A stretch of DNA of 27,031 nucleotides from Deltaproteobacteria bacterium RIFOXYA12_FULL_61_11 (GTDB lineage Bacteria > Bdellovibrionota_F > JAHFAK01 > YA12-FULL-61-11). The notes under the pieces are model-generated. The model worked only from the letters and a program-made list of their open reading frames with translations. It did not search any database and was not told the DNA's origin. Location: positions 1 to 27,031 of the forward strand of contig MGSU01000318.1 of assembly GCA_001799195.1 (NCBI GenBank), read 5' to 3'. A program made the translations under genes and the position numbers. Positions 2,862 to 24,516 of the stretch are shown here, one piece after another; position 1 is the stretch's first letter, and the number at the start of each line of letters is the position of its first letter.

Positions 2862-4859
2862 ATGAGAGCCATTCTATTTGCGTCATTCATTCTATTACCC
2901 GTTTCGATTATGGCCGGTGACTGGGTTCAGACGTTGGATATGGACCTCAAGGTGCCAACGAAGACCTTGGTCGATTCCGACATCGCCTCCAGTACCCTCG
3001 ATTTCACCGTTCCGGGTTACGAGTTGGAAACTATTGATATCAATGGGAAAGATTTTTCTTCCATCACGGTGCCCGAGCTGAACAACTTGAACGAAAAGGG
3101 CATGCCCAGTCTTCCCAAATTGACTGCTAGCGTGATCATTCCGGCCGAAGCCGCGATGAGCTATCGAATTCTCGAAGAAGACTGCCATGTTGAAGCCGTG
3201 GGTCCGATCGTCCCGGCCAAGGGTACGGTCTATCGGAATCAGAACCCCGCGTTGGTTCCTTACAGCTTCTCCAAGTTCTACCAGAGTTCCGACGTCTATC
3301 CACGCTCGAGCGTGAGCCTGAGCGAACCCTTCGTCGTGCGCGGAGTTCGTGGATTGACCGTTCAATATTACCCCTTCCAATACTTGGCCGAGAGCCAAGA
3401 AGTCCGTATCTGTTCGCGGGCACGGGTTGCTCTCTATGCAGATGGGATCTCTACCCACAACGTCGTGTCCGCAGATCTTCCGGCGAGTGCCACGACCGAT
3501 TTCTCGACCATCTACGACAAACTCTTCCTGAACTACCAGACCTACTTGGCGGACGACGAGAAACACGACGTCCCCGAGCAAGATAAACTGCTGATCATTG
3601 CTCATGATCGCTTCGCCAAAGAGATCCAACCCCTCGTGGAGTGGAAGCTGCAAAAGGGTGTCGCCACAAAGTTGGTTCTCACCTCGGCCATCAGTTCTAC
3701 CCCCAATACCCAACCAACACCTCAAGATATCAAGAAGTTCATCCAAAGCGAGTATGACCTGCGCGGTATTTCCCACATCCTACTCGTCGGTGATGCCGAA
3801 GAACTCAAACCCTTCCCCGGAACTTCTGGCAATGTGGTAGGGAAAGAAGCCGACCCCATGTATGTGCTCCTGGCCGGTAATGATAGCTATCCCGACGCTT
3901 TCATCAGCCGTTTCTCCGGCGAGACTCCGGAGCACATCCGCACCCAGGTGGAACGTTCAGTCTCCTACGAACGGCAACCTGAGCTCTCCGACTGGTATAA
4001 CAAAGCCATGGGCCTCGCCGGGGACGACAAGGGCGGTAATCCCAGCTATGCGGACTGGGAACGCGCTGATTTCCTGCGCACCGAATTGCTCAAGTACCCC
4101 TTCGCCTCGGTCGATCAATTCTACCATCGTCCCTTGACGGCCCCGATCCTCGATGCCTTCCGCCAAGGCCGCGGGTTCGTGAACTACATCAACCATGGTT
4201 CGACCACGAGTTGGCCCATCGGCAGCATCACCACCTCCGTGATCAGCCAAATGGATAATTACAACCGCTTGCCCTTCATCGTCTCGGTTGCATGCGTCAA
4301 CGGCAAATTCGCCGGTGGCACCTGTCTCGGTGAAGCTTTCCTCCGCGCCGGTACCCCGGGTAAACCCGCAGGCGCCATTGCTGTCTACGCTTCTTCGACC
4401 AATCAGAGCTGGGTTCCCCCATGTATCGGACAGCGTCGCGTCACCGACCTACTTGTTGCCCGGAAAAAGCTGTCCATCGGTGGCTTGTTCATGAACGGCG
4501 TCATCGCAACCCTCGAAGACGGAGAGAGTTCAGCGGTCCAGACCTATCAGAGCTGGCATGTCTTCGGCGACGGTTCCATCACCTCTCGGACTACGAAACC
4601 CGAGATGTTGAAGGTCGAACATCCCGAAGTGCTCTCCAAGAGTGCCGGCAATCTGCCCGTCACGGTCGAGAAAACCGCCGGGGCACTGGTCAGCATTTAC
4701 GCTGATGGCGTCAATTACGGTGCGGTCACTACCGACGCCAAAGGTGTCGCACTTATCCCGCTCAAAGATTGTGGCTGTATCCCGGTCGAGAAAATGACCT
4801 TAACCGTCACCGGGTTCAATAAAGTTCCCTACATCACCACACTCGCCGTCGTCGACTGA
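2862..4859 (+). CDS. Secreted gingipain-like cysteine protease (peptidase family C25)
   Basis: A 665-residue exported endopeptidase. Residues 1-18 form a Sec signal peptide (hydrophobic LFASFILLPVSIMAG). The N-terminal part is a propeptide-like region, and the caspase-like catalytic domain spans about 235-560. The catalytic dyad is visible: His445 in FVNYINHGS and Cys478 in VSVACVNG. The spacing of 33 residues equals that between His211 and Cys244 of RgpB, and the surrounding motifs match the family. The end (about 580-665) is an Ig-like beta domain as in gingipains (VTVEKTAGALVSIYADG). I see no typical type IX secretion tail, so export may be by Sec plus another route. The start is supported by an AAGGAGGGGGG ribosome site. 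It stands alone, divergent from the cobalamin gene and 164 nt before flhB. Substrate specificity cannot be read from the sequence. Confidence 0.93.
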   Translation: MRAILFASFILLPVSIMAGDWVQTLDMDLKVPTKTLVDSDIASSTLDFTVPGYELETIDINGKDFSSITVPELNNLNEKGMPSLPKLTASVIIPAEAAMSYRILEEDCHVEAVGPIVPAKGTVYRNQNPALVPYSFSKFYQSSDVYPRSSVSLSEPFVVRGVRGLTVQYYPFQYLAESQEVRICSRARVALYADGISTHNVVSADLPASATTDFSTIYDKLFLNYQTYLADDEKHDVPEQDKLLIIAHDRFAKEIQPLVEWKLQKGVATKLVLTSAISSTPNTQPTPQDIKKFIQSEYDLRGISHILLVGDAEELKPFPGTSGNVVGKEADPMYVLLAGNDSYPDAFISRFSGETPEHIRTQVERSVSYERQPELSDWYNKAMGLAGDDKGGNPSYADWERADFLRTELLKYPFASVDQFYHRPLTAPILDAFRQGRGFVNYINHGSTTSWPIGSITTSVISQMDNYNRLPFIVSVACVNGKFAGGTCLGEAFLRAGTPGKPAGAIAVYASSTNQSWVPPCIGQRRVTDLLVARKKLSIGGLFMNGVIATLEDGESSAVQTYQSWHVFGDGSITSRTTKPEMLKVEHPEVLSKSAGNLPVTVEKTAGALVSIYADGVNYGAVTTDAKGVALIPLKDCGCIPVEKMTLTVTGFNKVPYITTLAVVD

Positions 4860-14421: not shown

Positions 14422-15912
14422 TCAGTCGTCCAGACAACAGCGAAAACCAATATCCTCTGTTTGGTGGATGGCCGGTTGAAGGTCGTAATACCCACAGGTC
14501 TCTCCTGCAAGAGCGCCGGTTTTATAGCTACCGCCGAAAAAGAGGTACCCACTTCTGACCTCGGTAGGATCAGCGGTCAAAGCGTCAACATTCGCCAAAC
14601 ACCAGTCCTGTGGAAAACCGATGTTGCATAATTCTCGGCAGGCTTCACGGTTCCCCCCCGCACTCTCAGGATTGCAGCGAAGAGTGCTAGTCCATTCAGC
14701 AAGATTGCCAACCAAATCATAGACAATACTTACCGCATGATTATTCGAACATCCATACCCCGTACTTCGAGTATCAGTCTGGGTCAAATTACAATCTGCC
14801 TGCGAGGTTGCCCCACAAGCAATAGCTAATTCGTCAAACGTGCATAACCTCTTTCCGACATTCTCACAAGCTCGTTGGGCTTGCGCGAAGGTGACATGGC
14901 GCGATGGTTTTACACTGGCAAGTGGGCAAGCATAAAGTTTTATGGTTTCCACGCCACCTGAGCCAACGAGATCCGGGAACCCCTCGGGATAGTCATCTTG
15001 CCCTGCCTTTGTTGCAAAATATTTTCCCGAGAAGCAATCAGGAGAATCGGTTATCAAGCATTCGTACATGTCGATATAATAGGAAGTCCCTGACGAAGCG
15101 TCGTTCACACGCACCATGTGTTCTTTGGGATCTTTGACCTGGAATACAAAATAGTGGCTGATGGTATGTTGCCCATCACTAACCTCAATTTCAATACCTG
15201 GCCGAAGGTCGATGTCATCCAAGGTAGGAGAAAACACCAATAGTCCCTGTTTACTCAATGTGACAAGTTCTTCGGGGCCTTGGATCAAGGTATAGTTCAG
15301 GGTGTCGCCCTCGGGATCTTCAACTTCGTACTGGAAGGTGAAATCCGAACCTGGATATACTTTCACCATCTCGTCAGGCACAGAAACAAACGTAGGTGGA
15401 TCGTTCTTCCACAATACTTTCACATTAAATCGCTTTTTAGCTTTCTCGCTAGTATTCCGAGTCACTTCTACATCAAATATCTCAGTTTCTTTATTTGTCT
15501 TTGTGGGGGTCCAGGTCACTTCACCTGTAGTGGCATCAATAACCATCCCTACGGGACGTAATACCAGTTTATAGCTAAAACTCTCACCACTGGCAGCTTT
15601 GATCCCCATTTTACAGACATAGGGTTCATCTTCGCGAGCCTCGGTTGGACAGGTAAGGAAATCAATGGTAAACTGCGGCGCACCTATCGGTCCCTCCCCG
15701 GTCGTACCAGGATCAGGATTATCGACAACCCCCCCTCCATCATCTCCGGTGCCCTCGCGAATCGGCTCAAAACCTCCCGACGGAGGTTTTCCATCGATCA
15801 GTTGTCCCGGCGGCTTAATGATAGGATCGGGTTCCCCATCAACTACAATTGGATTATCTGTAGGCATACATCCCCAGACCCCCAGAATAAACCACACGAT
15901 AATAATTTTCAT
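14422..15912 (-). CDS. Cys-rich lipoprotein with two Ig-like domains and an FGE-sulfatase-like domain
   Basis: A 496-residue predicted lipoprotein. I chose the ATG at 15912, preceded by AAGGAAG at good spacing, over ATG at 15930 or further upstream; all lead into a signal peptide with lipidated Cys15 (WFILGVWGC). After a Pro/Gly-rich tether come a putative Ig domain of He_PIG type (about 78-166, PVGMVIDATTGEVTWTPT) and a cadherin-like domain (about 170-261, DPEGDTLNYTL). The C-terminal half (about 265-496) is a formylglycine-generating-enzyme/SUMF1-type domain: YYIDMYE, ACENVGKRLCTFDEL, YDLVGNLAEWTS, FFGGSY and a final IGFRCC. The catalytic pair in true FGE is Cys in GGSYxC plus a second Cys five residues later; here GGSYKT lacks the first, so oxidase activity is unlikely. 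At least 16 cysteines follow the lipobox, suggesting disulfides. Paralogous to the next gene. Confidence 0.88.
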   Translation of the reverse strand: MKIIIVWFILGVWGCMPTDNPIVVDGEPDPIIKPPGQLIDGKPPSGGFEPIREGTGDDGGGVVDNPDPGTTGEGPIGAPQFTIDFLTCPTEAREDEPYVCKMGIKAASGESFSYKLVLRPVGMVIDATTGEVTWTPTKTNKETEIFDVEVTRNTSEKAKKRFNVKVLWKNDPPTFVSVPDEMVKVYPGSDFTFQYEVEDPEGDTLNYTLIQGPEELVTLSKQGLLVFSPTLDDIDLRPGIEIEVSDGQHTISHYFVFQVKDPKEHMVRVNDASSGTSYYIDMYECLITDSPDCFSGKYFATKAGQDDYPEGFPDLVGSGGVETIKLYACPLASVKPSRHVTFAQAQRACENVGKRLCTFDELAIACGATSQADCNLTQTDTRSTGYGCSNNHAVSIVYDLVGNLAEWTSTLRCNPESAGGNREACRELCNIGFPQDWCLANVDALTADPTEVRSGYLFFGGSYKTGALAGETCGYYDLQPAIHQTEDIGFRCCLDD

Positions 15913-15996
15913 GGAGTTCTTCCTTTTCATGGCGGTTCTTTCGCTGAGTATGTGCATTTCACCTCATTTGCCACAAAAACCGCTTGTGACTTGATT

Positions 15997-16050: not shown

Positions 16051-17316
16051 TCAATCCTTACAACAACGCATTCCTATCGCCTCACTCGAGGTTTCTGCTA
16101 TCACCCGCTCGTAGGCGTAACCACCACAACTGGCATAGTCGATACCATTGACGTCATAAAACCCACCTGGGAGAAGATACCCTGTCGAACTCAAGGACTT
16201 CGGTCGAACTAACATAGCCAAGTTCTGAGTATCCGAGCACCATTTCTCGTCCTGCAGGAAGCGACACTGTCGGCCACACTCAATCACATCTTCGGGATTG
16301 CATTGCAGCGAACTTGTCCATTCTTTGATATTCCCGAGTAGATCATAGACCTGATATCGACCGGCACAGTTGCTCTTACTACCTGTTGGAATGGTATCCC
16401 CACCATTCCAGTTGCAATTCTGGGCTTCAGCCTCTGCACATGCCTCCAGCATTTCCATGTAAGTGCATAGGCGTTTACCCACATTGCTACATGCTTGCAG
16501 AGCTTGAACCAAGGTCAACCCACGCGACGGTAGGACCGCGGGAAGGGAACAAGCGTAGAAACGGGTGGAACCCGGCAGAGTGTTTCCCTCTGTCCCTACA
16601 TCATCAGGAAAGTCGGCGGGGAGATCGTCATTGCCTTTGACTTGGCTATAGTATGTACCAGCTTCGCATCCAGCGCTATACGAGATCACCGCTTCATAAG
16701 GATCTATCGAGTAGGATCCAATACGAACCATCTCCTGAGAACTGTCGTGGACCTCGACGATAAAGTCGTGAGCCAATTCCCGGTCCGAAGTATTGGCAAT
16801 AAGTTTGAATTGGTGCAAAGTCCCAACCAGACCTGAACTAGCATCATAGGTAAAAATGCCCTGTTCGTTTATACGAGCATTCCCACCTGTACTACTCTCA
16901 AGGCGGAACGTGGTAACTCCCCCCTTACCATCGTCTTGGAGAGAAAAATCGATAGCTAGACGAGATCCAAGGTACACACCATATTTTTGTAATGGTTTGT
17001 CCATGAATGCAATAGTTGAGGTTACGCTTGCTGCGGCATCAGTGCTAGGCTCTATTGGAGGGGGAGAAGTCACTGGTGGAATAGGCACTCCTACTGGCTC
17101 TTCAGGTGTTGGTATAGATGCGGGTTGAATCGGAGAAGGCCACGTTGCATCGGGAATCTCAGAGTTTGGGAAGGGGACAATCACCTGTTCTAAGGGGTTC
17201 TGTGGTGTTGCTTCTTGTATCTCGCTGGTTTCCGCATTGCCTACTGGGGGTTGAGGGCCGCACCCCAAAGAAACCAGGAAATTAAGTAGTACTATTACTA
17301 TACCAATTATCAACAT
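16051..17316 (-). CDS. Second Cys-rich FGE-like lipoprotein, paralogue of its neighbour
   Basis: A 421-residue predicted lipoprotein. The ATG at 17316 opens a hydrophobic signal segment with lipidated Cys19 (LLNFLVSLGC); its ribosome site is weak, and longer starts exist, but they would put non-hydrophobic sequence in front of the signal. Residues 20-95 are a Pro-rich tether, about 100-190 form an Ig-like domain (FRLESSTGGNARINEQGIFTYD), and about 195-421 form the same FGE-like domain as the gene downstream: MVRIGSYSIDPYEA, ACSNVGKRLCTYMEM, VYDLLGNIKEWTSSLQCNP, PGGFYDVNG and a final IGMRCCKD. The catalytic GGSYxC cysteine of true FGE is missing (GGFYDV). Shared Cys positions and the doublet at the end point to duplication. 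It is divergent from pepD and 138 nt upstream of its paralogue. Confidence 0.85.
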   Translation of the reverse strand: MLIIGIVIVLLNFLVSLGCGPQPPVGNAETSEIQEATPQNPLEQVIVPFPNSEIPDATWPSPIQPASIPTPEEPVGVPIPPVTSPPPIEPSTDAAASVTSTIAFMDKPLQKYGVYLGSRLAIDFSLQDDGKGGVTTFRLESSTGGNARINEQGIFTYDASSGLVGTLHQFKLIANTSDRELAHDFIVEVHDSSQEMVRIGSYSIDPYEAVISYSAGCEAGTYYSQVKGNDDLPADFPDDVGTEGNTLPGSTRFYACSLPAVLPSRGLTLVQALQACSNVGKRLCTYMEMLEACAEAEAQNCNWNGGDTIPTGSKSNCAGRYQVYDLLGNIKEWTSSLQCNPEDVIECGRQCRFLQDEKWCSDTQNLAMLVRPKSLSSTGYLLPGGFYDVNGIDYASCGGYAYERVIAETSSEAIGMRCCKD

Positions 17317-17428
17317 GGAGCATTGACCATCACTCAATTGAAGAATCCTAACACTCATCACCGTATCGAAGCAAGCAGTGCAAGACCAGAGAAGAAGGAT
17401 ATTGGTTGTCAGCACTTAATAGCGGTCA

Positions 17429-19597: not shown

Positions 19598-20977
19598 TTA
19601 CTTGGCGTAAAAGTAGACATCAACGATTTCTTGCAACTCACCTTTACTCGTCTTGAAACTACTTTTCTGGCGTATTGTATTATTGTAGGGATCTGCCTGC
19701 TCGATGGTTTGATATGCGAGATCGATCTCGGCAATACCAAACTCGCTTATGACTTTTACCTCATCAGTCTGAGACCGACCATCCATATTTTTGTCCACCC
19801 ATAGAGCAAGCTGCGAGAATTTTGGATCGAGGGGACTGATTTTACTGTCATTGTTCTCATCAAACTTCTTGAGTTCCTCGAAACCATTAGCCGAGCCACC
19901 AGCAGTTCCGAACAACTCACGGCCACTGTCGATAAATCCATTCCTATTAGCATCGTAGACGAGGAGAGCATCATCAAACTCTCCCAGTTCATCGTTGGCA
20001 ATCCAACCAGTTTCCATTTGCTCGCCTTCCCCATCAAGGTCGAAAAAGATAGGATTATGCTTCTCATCGCCAATTCCCGAAAAGGTGAAACCATCGCCAT
20101 TCAGGTCGAGTACCAGAGGAGAGTATCCGGTTTCGCAATACCCCTGTTCGATACCAGTCGTGTAATAGGTATCGCCACTGCTCTGTTCAGCCGCTGCCTT
20201 GCGAGTGTCGTGAGTATACACGGTGAACCGCGCGGGATGAGGGGCCGCGAGATTAATCGGGGTCCATTCTTTCTGGGCGGCCAAATTCACCCATTCGCCA
20301 GCGACTAGACCATAGAATGCACCTTCTGCTTGCAAGCTTAGGAATTTCACTCCCTTAGCTTCTTGATTCGCAACAAACTCCCGGACGAAGTTGCTCAAAT
20401 TATAATTGAGCGTAAGCAAGGGGTAGAGATTCTTCTGCCTCTTGGTCAGGAGGCTCTTCTGGTCGGTGAAGTCCTGAGTGGCCTCATCGATCTCAGAACC
20501 ATTGACCTTTAGGCGGAATTGCACTTGTTCTGAACTCTCTACGAAGCGATCTTCGCGACCATGATGCGTACATGCGCGAATGACCTCAATCTGAGTCATG
20601 TTCTGAGCATTGGTCTGCGCATTGTTTGTCGAGTTATAATCCTTGTCTTCGAAGGTGAAATACTCTGCGTAGTCGGGTTCGATCGGATTCGGATCGCAAA
20701 CATCGCCCATACCATCGTTATCGCGATCCAACTGATCTTCATTACTCATGAAGGCGCAACTGTCTTCCCAATCGAAAACCCCGTCAGTATCACTATCAGA
20801 ATCGGTAGTGTAAGTTTGAGGTCCCTGGTCTACAACTACTGGAATATCCTGAGCAGGTTGTTGTTGCTCTGTACTCCCCGGCACGGTAGGGGATGCCGTC
20901 TCCTCTGATTCTGAAGAGTTGCAACTAAGCACAAAGAACATCGTCAGGATACCTATCACTGCAAGCATCGTACGCAT
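19598..20977 (-). CDS. Lipoprotein with TSP3 and FrpC-like calcium-loop region
   Basis: A 459-residue predicted lipoprotein; the signal peptide ends in FFVLSC with Cys19, and the ATG follows GAGGGAGGAAGT. Residues 58-97 form thrombospondin type-3-like calcium loops (DSDSDTDGVFDWEDSC, DRDNDGMGDVCDPNP). The middle (about 130-280) is not recognised. Residues 286-422 match a region found in FrpC and other large RTX-type proteins: PLVLDLNGDGF, FFDLDGEGE, a TGW turn, LLVYDANRNGFIDSGRELFG, ANGFEELKKFDENND, LWVDKNMDGRSQTDE and FGIAEIDLAY. The DxNxDG-type loops should bind calcium. Such regions usually sit in very long secreted proteins, so the short lipoprotein form is unusual. A good promoter lies 43 nt upstream. 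It converges on the LpoB-like gene. Confidence 0.86.
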   Translation of the reverse strand: MRTMLAVIGILTMFFVLSCNSSESEETASPTVPGSTEQQQPAQDIPVVVDQGPQTYTTDSDSDTDGVFDWEDSCAFMSNEDQLDRDNDGMGDVCDPNPIEPDYAEYFTFEDKDYNSTNNAQTNAQNMTQIEVIRACTHHGREDRFVESSEQVQFRLKVNGSEIDEATQDFTDQKSLLTKRQKNLYPLLTLNYNLSNFVREFVANQEAKGVKFLSLQAEGAFYGLVAGEWVNLAAQKEWTPINLAAPHPARFTVYTHDTRKAAAEQSSGDTYYTTGIEQGYCETGYSPLVLDLNGDGFTFSGIGDEKHNPIFFDLDGEGEQMETGWIANDELGEFDDALLVYDANRNGFIDSGRELFGTAGGSANGFEELKKFDENNDSKISPLDPKFSQLALWVDKNMDGRSQTDEVKVISEFGIAEIDLAYQTIEQADPYNNTIRQKSSFKTSKGELQEIVDVYFYAK

Positions 20978-21392: not shown

Positions 21393-23096
21393 ATGACATC
21401 CATTCCTGCCCATTCTCATATTTCGATTCGTCAACATGCTGCACCACACCAAGGGCTTACAATACTTGAGTTTCTGCTCGCGATTGGCTTAACCATTTCA
21501 CTCGCTCTTATTACAATGGCTTGGTCGAACGAACTGCATGTACATGCTCTCCTTTCACATGCAACTTCCCAGGTTCGAACCATTCGCGATCTCGAAGTAC
21601 TCCATTTACTCAATGAATCATCGGACCAAGCAATCTTCGTTCGCTGTCCACCTAGCCCCGACTTCCCACCTCCAGATCAGCCAATTCCATTCGATGACGC
21701 CCTTATCGTTGAGCAACCCGATGGAAGTTCCGCTGCTGGCTGGCTCCTCCTTGGTTTCAAACCAGAAATACCCGAACAAATTAGTTATGCTGTTGAGGTA
21801 TTTTCCGATGGTAGTAGGGCCTTGATTCTCGCCTTTGCCAACCTTAATCCTCCAGATTGGTTACGGTCTTCGAACAGAACCGATCCCTCCCCAACCTCTC
21901 CTAGATTGAAGGTATTGCAGCAGAAAGAATTGGAACTCGAAACGAAAATTGCAAGCCTATTAGGCGATGAGAAATCCGGGATGCAAATCATGCAACTGGA
22001 CCATCTCACTCGGCAAGAACAACTCAAGACCTCATGTGAATTAGAGAGAGAACGTATTGAGGAGTGGTTTCACACAAGAATAAACGAATTACAAGAACTT
22101 ACAAAAACAAGGAAAGAAGCAACCCGCATTGAGTTCGCTCTAGAACAGAAGCTCGCAACTATCGATCTTGAATATCAGAGAAAGCGCCTCAGCCTCGGAA
22201 AACAAGCATCTGAGGCAAAACGAAAGTTAGAACAGGAAATTGCAATTATTCGCAACTCCCAAGAACAGTATAAAACTACATTACGTCAAGAAATCATTGC
22301 CCGGTTTTCCCAACAACGATCCAATCTCAACGAACGTCATACCAAACGATTAGAATTGGTAAAGAAACAAGCTCTCAAAGAACTTCGCGAAATCCGTAAA
22401 GATAAAGCACAATTACTACGTAGCCCCGCGCTTCTTGGAACAGAAGAAGAACGTCGCATCGACGATCAAATTCTCTCTATCAAACGTGATTATCACTCCA
22501 CAGCCCAACGTTATGAAATCGAACAACAACAAGAAATCGAAGCACTGACCATGGCGGAAGAGAAAGAACTGCTCGGCCTCGCCTCGCTTGTCAGTTCATC
22601 TATTAATACAAAAGTGCTTGAACTCACAACCAAGATCAAGACGTACGAATTGCGCACTAAGCAAATTCAGGAGCAAATTGAAGTTGACCGTCAAGAACGT
22701 GAGGAAGAATTAACGCATATACTAAACCATGCTCTTGCGAAAGTCGACACCGAGCGGGAACAACTTCGTCTAGAACTCCACAATCTGCATCGCCAAGAAC
22801 TAGCAAAAAACAATCTCTCCTGCAACCAAGAACTCCAACGTTTACTTGCTGAAAAAGAACTTGCAGAACAGTCCCTCAGGGCTCGTTATCAGCAGATTGT
22901 GCGCATCGAGATTTCTGCACTCAATGAGTTACGCTCCTCTGCAATGAGAGCAAAGGACCATGACCTTCGCGTAGCAACCTTCATCGCACACAAGAGGCAC
23001 CGCAACTTGACAGTACTCTCACTCACTCTCGAAGCTTCCCGAACTGAAACTTCTAGAGTGCGAACCTCGCATATGTACATGGAAGGCTTGCCGTGA
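21393..23096 (+). CDS. Prepilin-like protein with a very long coiled coil
   Basis: About 567 residues from the ATG at 21393 (a GTG 12 nt upstream is in frame). The N-terminus is a type IV prepilin leader: 21 residues ending in Gly, then mature LTILEF with Glu at +5, followed by the hydrophobic helix LLAIGLTISLALITMAW. A prepilin peptidase should cut after Gly21, as in pilins and pseudopilins of type II secretion. Residues 50-165 form a small region (LLLGFKPE, YAVEVFSDGSRALILAFANL). From about 175 to 545 the chain is almost unbroken heptad-like sequence rich in Glu, Lys, Arg, Gln and Leu (ERIEEWFHTRINELQEL, EIEALTMAEEKELLGL). Minor pilins are usually under 350 residues and globular, so this architecture is unusual. 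No other pilus gene is nearby, and the neighbour downstream is convergent. Confidence 0.8.
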   Translation: MTSIPAHSHISIRQHAAPHQGLTILEFLLAIGLTISLALITMAWSNELHVHALLSHATSQVRTIRDLEVLHLLNESSDQAIFVRCPPSPDFPPPDQPIPFDDALIVEQPDGSSAAGWLLLGFKPEIPEQISYAVEVFSDGSRALILAFANLNPPDWLRSSNRTDPSPTSPRLKVLQQKELELETKIASLLGDEKSGMQIMQLDHLTRQEQLKTSCELERERIEEWFHTRINELQELTKTRKEATRIEFALEQKLATIDLEYQRKRLSLGKQASEAKRKLEQEIAIIRNSQEQYKTTLRQEIIARFSQQRSNLNERHTKRLELVKKQALKELREIRKDKAQLLRSPALLGTEEERRIDDQILSIKRDYHSTAQRYEIEQQQEIEALTMAEEKELLGLASLVSSSINTKVLELTTKIKTYELRTKQIQEQIEVDRQEREEELTHILNHALAKVDTEREQLRLELHNLHRQELAKNNLSCNQELQRLLAEKELAEQSLRARYQQIVRIEISALNELRSSAMRAKDHDLRVATFIAHKRHRNLTVLSLTLEASRTETSRVRTSHMYMEGLP

Positions 23097-23133: not shown

Positions 23134-24147
23134 CTATTGGAAGTAATTGGTGATCTCAACACAGGCAGCGTCAGTGACCTCATTCAGTGGCTGGAAATCT
23201 TCATCGTAGATTATTTCTTCAACCTTCATGGTGAAGGTGACCTCGACTTCTCCATCTTCGCAATCGCCCTGATCAGCTATTGTGAAAGCCTCACGCTCTG
23301 CTCCGAGATTAAGTCGATAGATCTCTGAGAAATCACCCTCATCCACTAGCCCACGTTTTGTCATCTCTGCAGCTACAAGGTTACGCTTGACCGTGAGATC
23401 TGTCACTCCAGCGGTCAGAGAGAAGAAAGCAGTAGTTTCACCATTGTCCCGTGCATTTGCAGCATCTTCCTGTGTCAAATCCCACTTTTGAATGCCTCCA
23501 AGGGTGGAATAATTGACCGCAGCTTCAATATCCCCCTGAGAAGAGGAAAAGGTGAAGAACTGGATGCACGGCTTACCGCACTCGCAATCGGTCTCCTCAG
23601 CAACTGCCAGCAAGGACGGGTTGTTTAGTGCGAAGTGCAGATATTTCATCGCCTGATCCTTCTCACCAGTGGCGTTCTGGACCTCAAGCTTCATTTCGTT
23701 ATCGTGCTTGTTATAGAAAGATAACCTTCTCAATACCTCGGGTTGCGCTTTGATCAGAATAGTAGCCTTGCTGGCAGGGTCTCCTTGATAGGTTATGGAT
23801 GAAGAACGCAGATCGACGAACTGATTGTTGACCTTGAAGCGGAGCGATCCTGGGTCGAAATCGTTTTCGACATGAAAAGCGAGCTTGATCTCCCCAGCCA
23901 ACTCCGTAATAGCATTGGTCGGCGTGAATTCATCCACCACCAATTTTGGCCCAATGCCATTACTGGTCCCATTGGGGATATCTGTCGACCGGCTCGAATC
24001 ATTTCCCATGGGCATTGCTGTGGCATTTGGATCCAAACCGCTAGGCCCGGTCAAGTCATTCTTGTTACTCTTGCTGCCTCCACCACACCCGGCCAAGACC
24101 AGAACCAGGGTAAGGAGCAATCCAAATAGGACGTTCACGATCTTCAT
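23134..24147 (-). CDS. Lipoprotein of unknown function with CxC..C motif
   Basis: A 337-residue predicted lipoprotein. The ATG at 24147 follows GGGAGGTGAAA and opens a signal peptide with lipidated Cys21 (LTLVLVLAGC) and a Gly-rich start of the mature protein. A polar Asn/Gly/Ser tether reaches about residue 65. Residues 70-175 look like a beta domain (LVVDEFTPTNAITELAGEIK, IKLAFHVENDFDPGSLRFKV). Then comes the motif C188-E-C190-G-K-P-C194, followed by FFTFSSSQGDIEAAVNYST, and a last part with helices and a pair of Cys (296 and 329). I do not recognise the family. It converges with the coiled-coil gene (37 nt between stops) and is divergent from thioredoxin. Confidence 0.78.
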   Translation of the reverse strand: MKIVNVLFGLLLTLVLVLAGCGGGSKSNKNDLTGPSGLDPNATAMPMGNDSSRSTDIPNGTSNGIGPKLVVDEFTPTNAITELAGEIKLAFHVENDFDPGSLRFKVNNQFVDLRSSSITYQGDPASKATILIKAQPEVLRRLSFYNKHDNEMKLEVQNATGEKDQAMKYLHFALNNPSLLAVAEETDCECGKPCIQFFTFSSSQGDIEAAVNYSTLGGIQKWDLTQEDAANARDNGETTAFFSLTAGVTDLTVKRNLVAAEMTKRGLVDEGDFSEIYRLNLGAEREAFTIADQGDCEDGEVEVTFTMKVEEIIYDEDFQPLNEVTDAACVEITNYFQ

Positions 24148-24516
24148 TTTCACCTCCCAGATGCGCAACATCAGTCCGACTTGCAAAGGACATACCCACG
24201 CTATCGGCATCCAAGATTTTACAACCCATTGTCTATCAAAAAGAAGATCACTACAAGCAAGTGCCAACCCACATCTTTCCTTGCAGGAACCCACAGTGGA
24301 CTGCAATGATTGCAGACATAACCGCGATGCGACCTTCACCCTACAGTATCCAGGATCGGCCTGCCCAAACCACTAGAATTTCCTCACTTTCCAGAATGTC
24401 AAAGGGAATATGCATTTCTTGGCAATATCCAGGGAGTATTGACAACACCAGCGCAATGCGGCATAGGCAACATAGTGCTAGTAATTGACCAGTTCAAGAT
24501 AAGGAGGACCTTAATC
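24148..24516. other. Intergenic region between a divergent lipoprotein and thioredoxin
   Basis: No gene is supported: short frames here lack ribosome sites and recognisable products. A TTGACA (24439-24444) lies upstream of thioredoxin, but the hexamer at 17 nt (CATAGG) is poor, so the promoter is uncertain. The AAGGAGG ribosome site of thioredoxin is at 24501-24507. Confidence 0.5.

Follow-up and report, generated by a model that had tools for sequence, protein, structure and literature searches.

Modular pilins, in which an extra module is grafted onto a pilin module, are a known and diverse class. A survey based on database domains counted 264 of their architectures (Raynaud et al. 2021, PMC8179133), and, as its authors noted, modules that lack database signatures would escape such a count. 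In Streptococcus sanguinis, PilB and PilC consist of a class III signal peptide, a small pilin module, a linker, and a large C-terminal module (PMC8179133). A rod-like helical module goes unmentioned in the passages of the survey drawn on here, the word "coiled" is absent from the whole paper, and the open-licence literature that we searched held no description of pilins with coiled-coil or hendecad modules. Here, we describe a gene from Deltaproteobacteria bacterium RIFOXYA12_FULL_61_11 whose predicted product joins a prepilin-type start and a pilin-like head to a long helical rod. The gene lies in a stretch of 27,031 nucleotides (contig MGSU01000318.1), which we call the window.

Results

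The focal gene is a single intact open reading frame (ORF) on the forward strand (window positions 21393 to 23096) that opens at an ATG (21393) or a GTG (21381), closes with a TGA (23094 to 23096), and encodes 567 or 571 amino acids, with no stop or frameshift within. The leader, the pilin-like head, and the hendecad rod share one frame; a frameshift between leader and coil was looked for and none was seen, and an artefact of frameshift or fusion can be rejected as far as the sequence allows. The leader contains one arginine and several histidines and ends in glycine; residues 14 to 45 read QHAAPHQG followed by LTILEFLLAIGLTISLALITMAWS. Prepilin peptidase is predicted to cleave after G21, and the residues around this point (HQG, then LTILEF, with Glu at +5 and an uncharged stretch next) are those of a prepilin-type start. 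The same junction, HQG followed by LTILEFLLAIGLTISLALITMAW, has the form of the class III signal peptide of modular type IV pilins, and the first 20 mature residues were modelled with a pLDDT of about 95 in a head-only AlphaFold2 model.

The specificity of this leader was gauged by running a prepilin expression as a six-frame scan over every locus examined. The expression matched 36 ORF products, one of them clearly spurious and nearly all others either annotated prepilins or from loci that had been chosen for their prepilins. Since these matches are almost all prepilins, the prepilin-like leader of the focal protein is unlikely to have arisen by chance. The leader proposed in an earlier, sequence-only reading of this DNA (Gly, LTILEF, Glu at +5, and a hydrophobic stretch) was thus borne out in an intact ORF, and it matches a specific expression. 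By the standard of the profiles, however, the leader is atypical: the prepilin models of Pfam and NCBIfam did not report the protein even at an E value of 10, and it was absent from the matches of a whole-genome N_methyl search.

Table 1. Predicted features of the focal protein and its flanking genes, in window coordinates
Feature	Residues	Position	Strand	Basis or remark
Predicted lipoprotein, thrombospondin-3-type match		19598-20977	-	Flanks the focal gene
Alternative GTG start		21381	+	4 extra residues on the leader
Leader peptide	1-21	21393..21455	+	Sequence; leader pattern is specific
Mature N-terminal pilin helix alpha1 (LTILEFLLAIGLTISLALITMAW..., Glu +5)	22-72	21456..21608	+	AlphaFold2 helix 20-72
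Small pilin-like head, motif GWLLLGFKPEIPEQISYAVEV	73-152	21609..21848	+	hhalign to five PilA-type pilins; strands in both models, low confidence
Pro/Ser-rich linker between head and stalk	153-171	21849..21905	+	Sequence; no regular structure in model
First stalk helix	172-342	21906..22418	+	AlphaFold2 helix 170-342; net charge +9 in distal part 246-342
Break or turn between long helices (RSPALLGT)	343-350	22419..22442	+	Only Pro between 171 and 566; gap in AlphaFold2 helices
Second stalk helix	351-525	22443..22967	+	AlphaFold2 helix 351-552; strong 11-residue periodicity; net charge -9 in 351-447
C-terminal tail (NLTVLSLTLEAS)	526-567	22968..23093	+	Basic, His-rich; low COILS-type score; pLDDT 31-57
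Another predicted lipoprotein		23134-24339	-	Flanks the focal gene on the other side

The small domain that had been noticed after the leader is present, and it can be described more closely as pilin-like. Leader and head together matched an alignment of five PilA-type pilins (hhalign E of 4e-7, probability 93%). After removal of the leader and membrane helix, the head still scored 34.2 (E of 4e-5); no score among 40 shuffles exceeded 21.1, and the reversed sequence of the head gave 10.0. In these alignments, GWLLLGFKPEIPEQISYAVEV of the head falls on the W..LG..P....Y.V pattern shared by PilA-type pilins of this assembly and of another genome (G015). A direct search of genomes with the whole protein gave the G015 pilin as its sole match, pairing query residues 19 to 140 with an ordinary pilin that has no rod (E of 7e-4). 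Because the alignment of five includes this very pilin, the direct-search and hhalign lines of evidence overlap. The similarity covers the first strands only and stops soon after, and the pilin fold would therefore be truncated. Both the full-length and the head-only AlphaFold2 models show an N-terminal helix and then short strands (near W117 and at residues 131 to 136 and 143 to 148), with low confidence (pLDDT below 50). A fold search with the head-only model was dropped because the model was too poor. On this computed evidence, residues 73 to 152 are a probable reduced pilin module. As in modular type IV pilins, an extra module with no specific tie to pilus biology follows by way of a linker, here a Pro/Ser-rich segment (153 to 171) that leads into predicted helices at 170 to 342 and 351 to 552.

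The helical part of the protein spans about 370 residues, judged from composition and prediction, and a single proline occurs between residues 171 and 566. AlphaFold2, run on the single sequence, predicted the two long helices with a pLDDT of 70 to 89 over residues 200 to 500 or so; the extended helix that a structure predictor was expected to find is therefore present in the model. A coiled coil of that length had been claimed, and the long helical region stands, but the COILS-type score of the rod is only modestly raised (mean of 1.377 versus 1.302 ± 0.030 for shuffles, with a scoring matrix entered by hand). Since the score is little above that of shuffles, the coiled-coil signal comes mostly from composition, with a modest share from residue order.

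The periodicity of the rod is that of hendecads. The strongest peak in its hydrophobic spectrum is at 3.64 residues per turn, not 3.5 (P = 0.002 on a binary scale), and an unshifted 11-residue register runs through the whole rod (P = 0.0002), whereas a 7-residue register is weak (P = 0.08) and does not amount to a canonical heptad coiled coil; these P values are uncorrected, with several scales and periods tried, and the period and register tests agree. Helix by helix, the 11-residue register of helix 2 was reached by none of 3000 shuffles, and helix 1 alone gave a weak signal (P = 0.12). The agreement between the period and the register indicates that the rod is built of hendecads and forms a nearly straight bundle. 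The nearly continuous heptad-like sequence described in the sequence-only reading is thus replaced by a different register, which is interrupted by the turn at residues 343 to 350. No internal repeats rose above the shuffle limit in the rod. Past the second helix, residues 526 to 560 carry a charge of +5, and the tail as a whole is possibly beta-prone.

In the single-sequence AlphaFold2 model, the rod doubles back as an antiparallel hairpin about 26 nm long (173 residues at 0.15 nm each), compared with about 55 nm for an extended parallel rod. The closest structural analogues of the model (VIA-align) are likewise antiparallel hairpins, namely, a chemoreceptor (2ch7; Z of 11.9) and Smc arms (Z of about 10), where matches at Z of 10 to 12 show arrangement only. 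Foldseek returned no match to the model with an E value below 0.001, and a sequence search of the PDB with the focal protein returned none. The halves that would face each other (246 to 342 and 351 to 447) are opposite in net charge (P = 0.036), which fits a hairpin, and residue-by-residue pairing of charged and hydrophobic positions gave no clear optimum. Going by the model, the rod is probably a hairpin rather than one continuous rod.

Apart from the rodless G015 pilin, no homologues of the whole protein or of the head were found among GTDB-species contigs, 59 whole genomes, viral contigs, phages, and plasmids. The source phylum is a deep lineage represented by two genomes in the collection searched, and the second contained no match to the focal protein. 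Among the sequences searched, the leader-head-rod fusion is thus unique to this protein. In a comparison with stretches from other genomes that bear long prepilins, a small and non-systematic sample picked mostly for a long prepilin frame, a 30-residue coil run occurred in 1 of 11 stretches, and the run in the focal protein is 105 residues. Prepilin-type proteins of about 1060 (L042) and 1635 (L041) residues, from genomes G046 and G036, had no coiled coil by the score used.

The focal gene stands alone, adjoining no pilus gene. Elsewhere in the window, two predicted lipoproteins that lie side by side and are built alike (14422 to 15957 and 16051 to 17415, both on the reverse strand) contain Ig-like regions and a weak C terminus of the sulfatase-modifying-factor type; the first protein alone reaches Pfam. 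A complete gingipain-like C25 cysteine peptidase with a propeptide and an Ig-like C-terminal domain (2862 to 4859, forward strand; Pfam C25, E of 4e-51) adjoins flagellar flhB and flhA.

The source assembly is a metagenome-assembled genome of 4.64 Mb that is 87% complete. It encodes a type II secretion system (T2SS) operon on a separate contig, C108 (GspD/E/F/G/H/I/J/K/L/M/N-like ORFs), four PilA-type pilins, including tandem PilA genes, and PilW/PilX-like minor pilins. It also encodes a prepilin-type minor pilin of 796 amino acids (L019:8342-10732, forward strand) with a short prepilin-like ORF after it; the C-terminal half of the 796-residue protein looks lectin (LamG)-like by eye, and Pfam is silent at an E value of 0.001. 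A GspE/PilB-type ATPase (L020:2550-5021, forward strand) has an N-terminal GAF domain ahead of MshEN. Despite the T2SS operon and a dozen pilins, no match to prepilin peptidase (PF01478, Peptidase_A24) was found in the 87%-complete assembly; such a gene probably falls in the 13% that is missing, or is divergent.

The origin of the contig bears on this point. The GC content of the window is 0.50, versus 0.58 to 0.64 in the pilus and other contigs of the bin, and along the window it falls from 0.57 to 0.44 toward the focal gene. The tetranucleotide signature of the window is intermediate: the half with the focal gene correlates with the assembly's own contigs at 0.29 to 0.48, barely above some unrelated genomes, and the other half at 0.54 to 0.68. 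The focal gene may thus sit in a divergent AT-rich island, or the contig may be misbinned. The window holds the assembly's only FlhA, and flagellar rod and hook genes lie on its GC-rich contigs, so the contig may, as a provisional assignment, belong to the assembly. Conversely, given the missing peptidase match and the GC content of the window, the pilus machinery may come from another organism.

Discussion

We give an even chance to the reading that the focal protein serves a type 4 filament as a modular minor pilin, with a helical stalk as its extra module. Under this proposal, the leader would, like other class III signal peptides, be removed after Gly21 by the prepilin peptidase of the inner membrane, and the mature hydrophobic helix (residues 22 to about 72), with its Glu at +5, would anchor the subunit in the membrane and later in the filament core. 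The pilin-like head (about 73 to 152) would then lie at the surface or tip of the filament. The Pro/Ser-rich linker would bear the hendecad helices (172 to 342 and 351 to about 525), folded back into a stiff, near-straight hairpin about 26 nm long. This hairpin would stick out from the filament, most probably at its tip, and serve as a stalk or adhesin-like spacer with a possible binding role. The assembly, in which no prepilin peptidase match was found, does encode an assembly machine in its T2SS operon. More tentatively, a type 4 filament subunit with such a straight hendecad hairpin would be a pilin-borne stalk, for which we found no description among pilins.

The sequence-only reading had offered a stalk, a tether spanning the periplasm, or a surface fibre; we favour the stalk and consider the tether rather unlikely. 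As a tether, the pilin-type segment, with or without processing, would fix the protein in the inner membrane, and the hairpin would span the periplasm toward the peptidoglycan or outer membrane with no polymerisation. The length of the hairpin is near the width that a diderm periplasm generally has, the gene stands alone among predicted lipoprotein and secreted-protein genes, and so bulky a rod would not easily pack within a filament. However, an ordinary anchor would need neither a Gly cleavage motif with Glu at +5 nor a head that matches pilins.

The protein had also been called a pseudopilin. It is probably of pilin type, but its gene stands alone with no link to the gsp operon, it has no T2SS Pfam match, no relative was found, and it may instead be a minor pilin. 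We regard as improbable the idea that it is a T2SS pseudopilin, for example, a tip subunit, whose rod would resemble the alpha-domain insertion of GspK and whose basic tail would complete the pilin sheet after the hairpin. Such a hairpin would return the tail to the head, the pilin sheet of GspK does have a helical domain inserted into it (PMC8179133), and the LTILEF of the leader resembles the FSILEV of a GspI-like ORF in the same assembly, where a T2SS operon is present. Yet G, H, I, J, and K-like genes are already part of that operon, the stand-alone focal gene is unlinked to it and shows no homology to GspI/J/K, and no match in sequence between the tail and a pilin strand was seen. Only slightly more doubtful is an unrelated protein of the inner membrane that resembles a prepilin at its start by chance and has a cytoplasmic or periplasmic coiled coil, which would fit a rapidly evolving, AT-rich, ORFan-like gene with no Pfam or NCBIfam match but would require both the specificity of the leader pattern and the separate similarity of the head to be chance.

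If the focal protein is a modular minor pilin, its interest lies in the kind of module grafted. In modular pilins, extra domains give new functions to a simple filament, and what a rod contributes would be mechanical (reach, stiffness, or spacing) instead of a binding domain. It would also raise a question of packing, namely, how a subunit that bears a hairpin of 26 nm gets through the secretin or is retained at the tip. Since Pfam and NCBIfam are silent on this protein, our data suggest that counts of modular pilins made from domain databases miss helical modules. The sequence-only reading named no family with a pilin-anchored rod; we found no description of a rod-type module on a pilin, but pilins with grafted modules are known (PMC8179133), and a helical stalk, as predicted here from sequence, would be a new type of module within that established principle.

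Comparison with known systems places the protein as follows. With S. sanguinis PilB and PilC (PMC8179133) it shares, by prediction, the order of class III signal peptide, small pilin module, linker, and large C-terminal module. The extra modules of modular pilins in that survey are globular (vWA, lectin, PA14, peptidases, and others), whereas here about 370 residues are helical. With the PilA-type major pilins (contig C339 of the same assembly and G015) it has in common the leader, alpha1, and the W..LG..P....Y.V motif of the head, but those proteins end after the head, at about 170 to 215 amino acids, with no rod. GspK, a minor pseudopilin of the T2SS, also joins a pilin module to a large helical addition; however, the sheet of GspK is where its alpha-domain is inserted, and the GspK of this assembly is recognised by Pfam (PF21687), which does not match the focal protein. 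The hairpins of chemoreceptors and Smc arms (2ch7, 5nnv, and 5xg2) consist of two long antiparallel helices, as does the predicted stalk, but they are cytoplasmic and have no sequence relationship to it.
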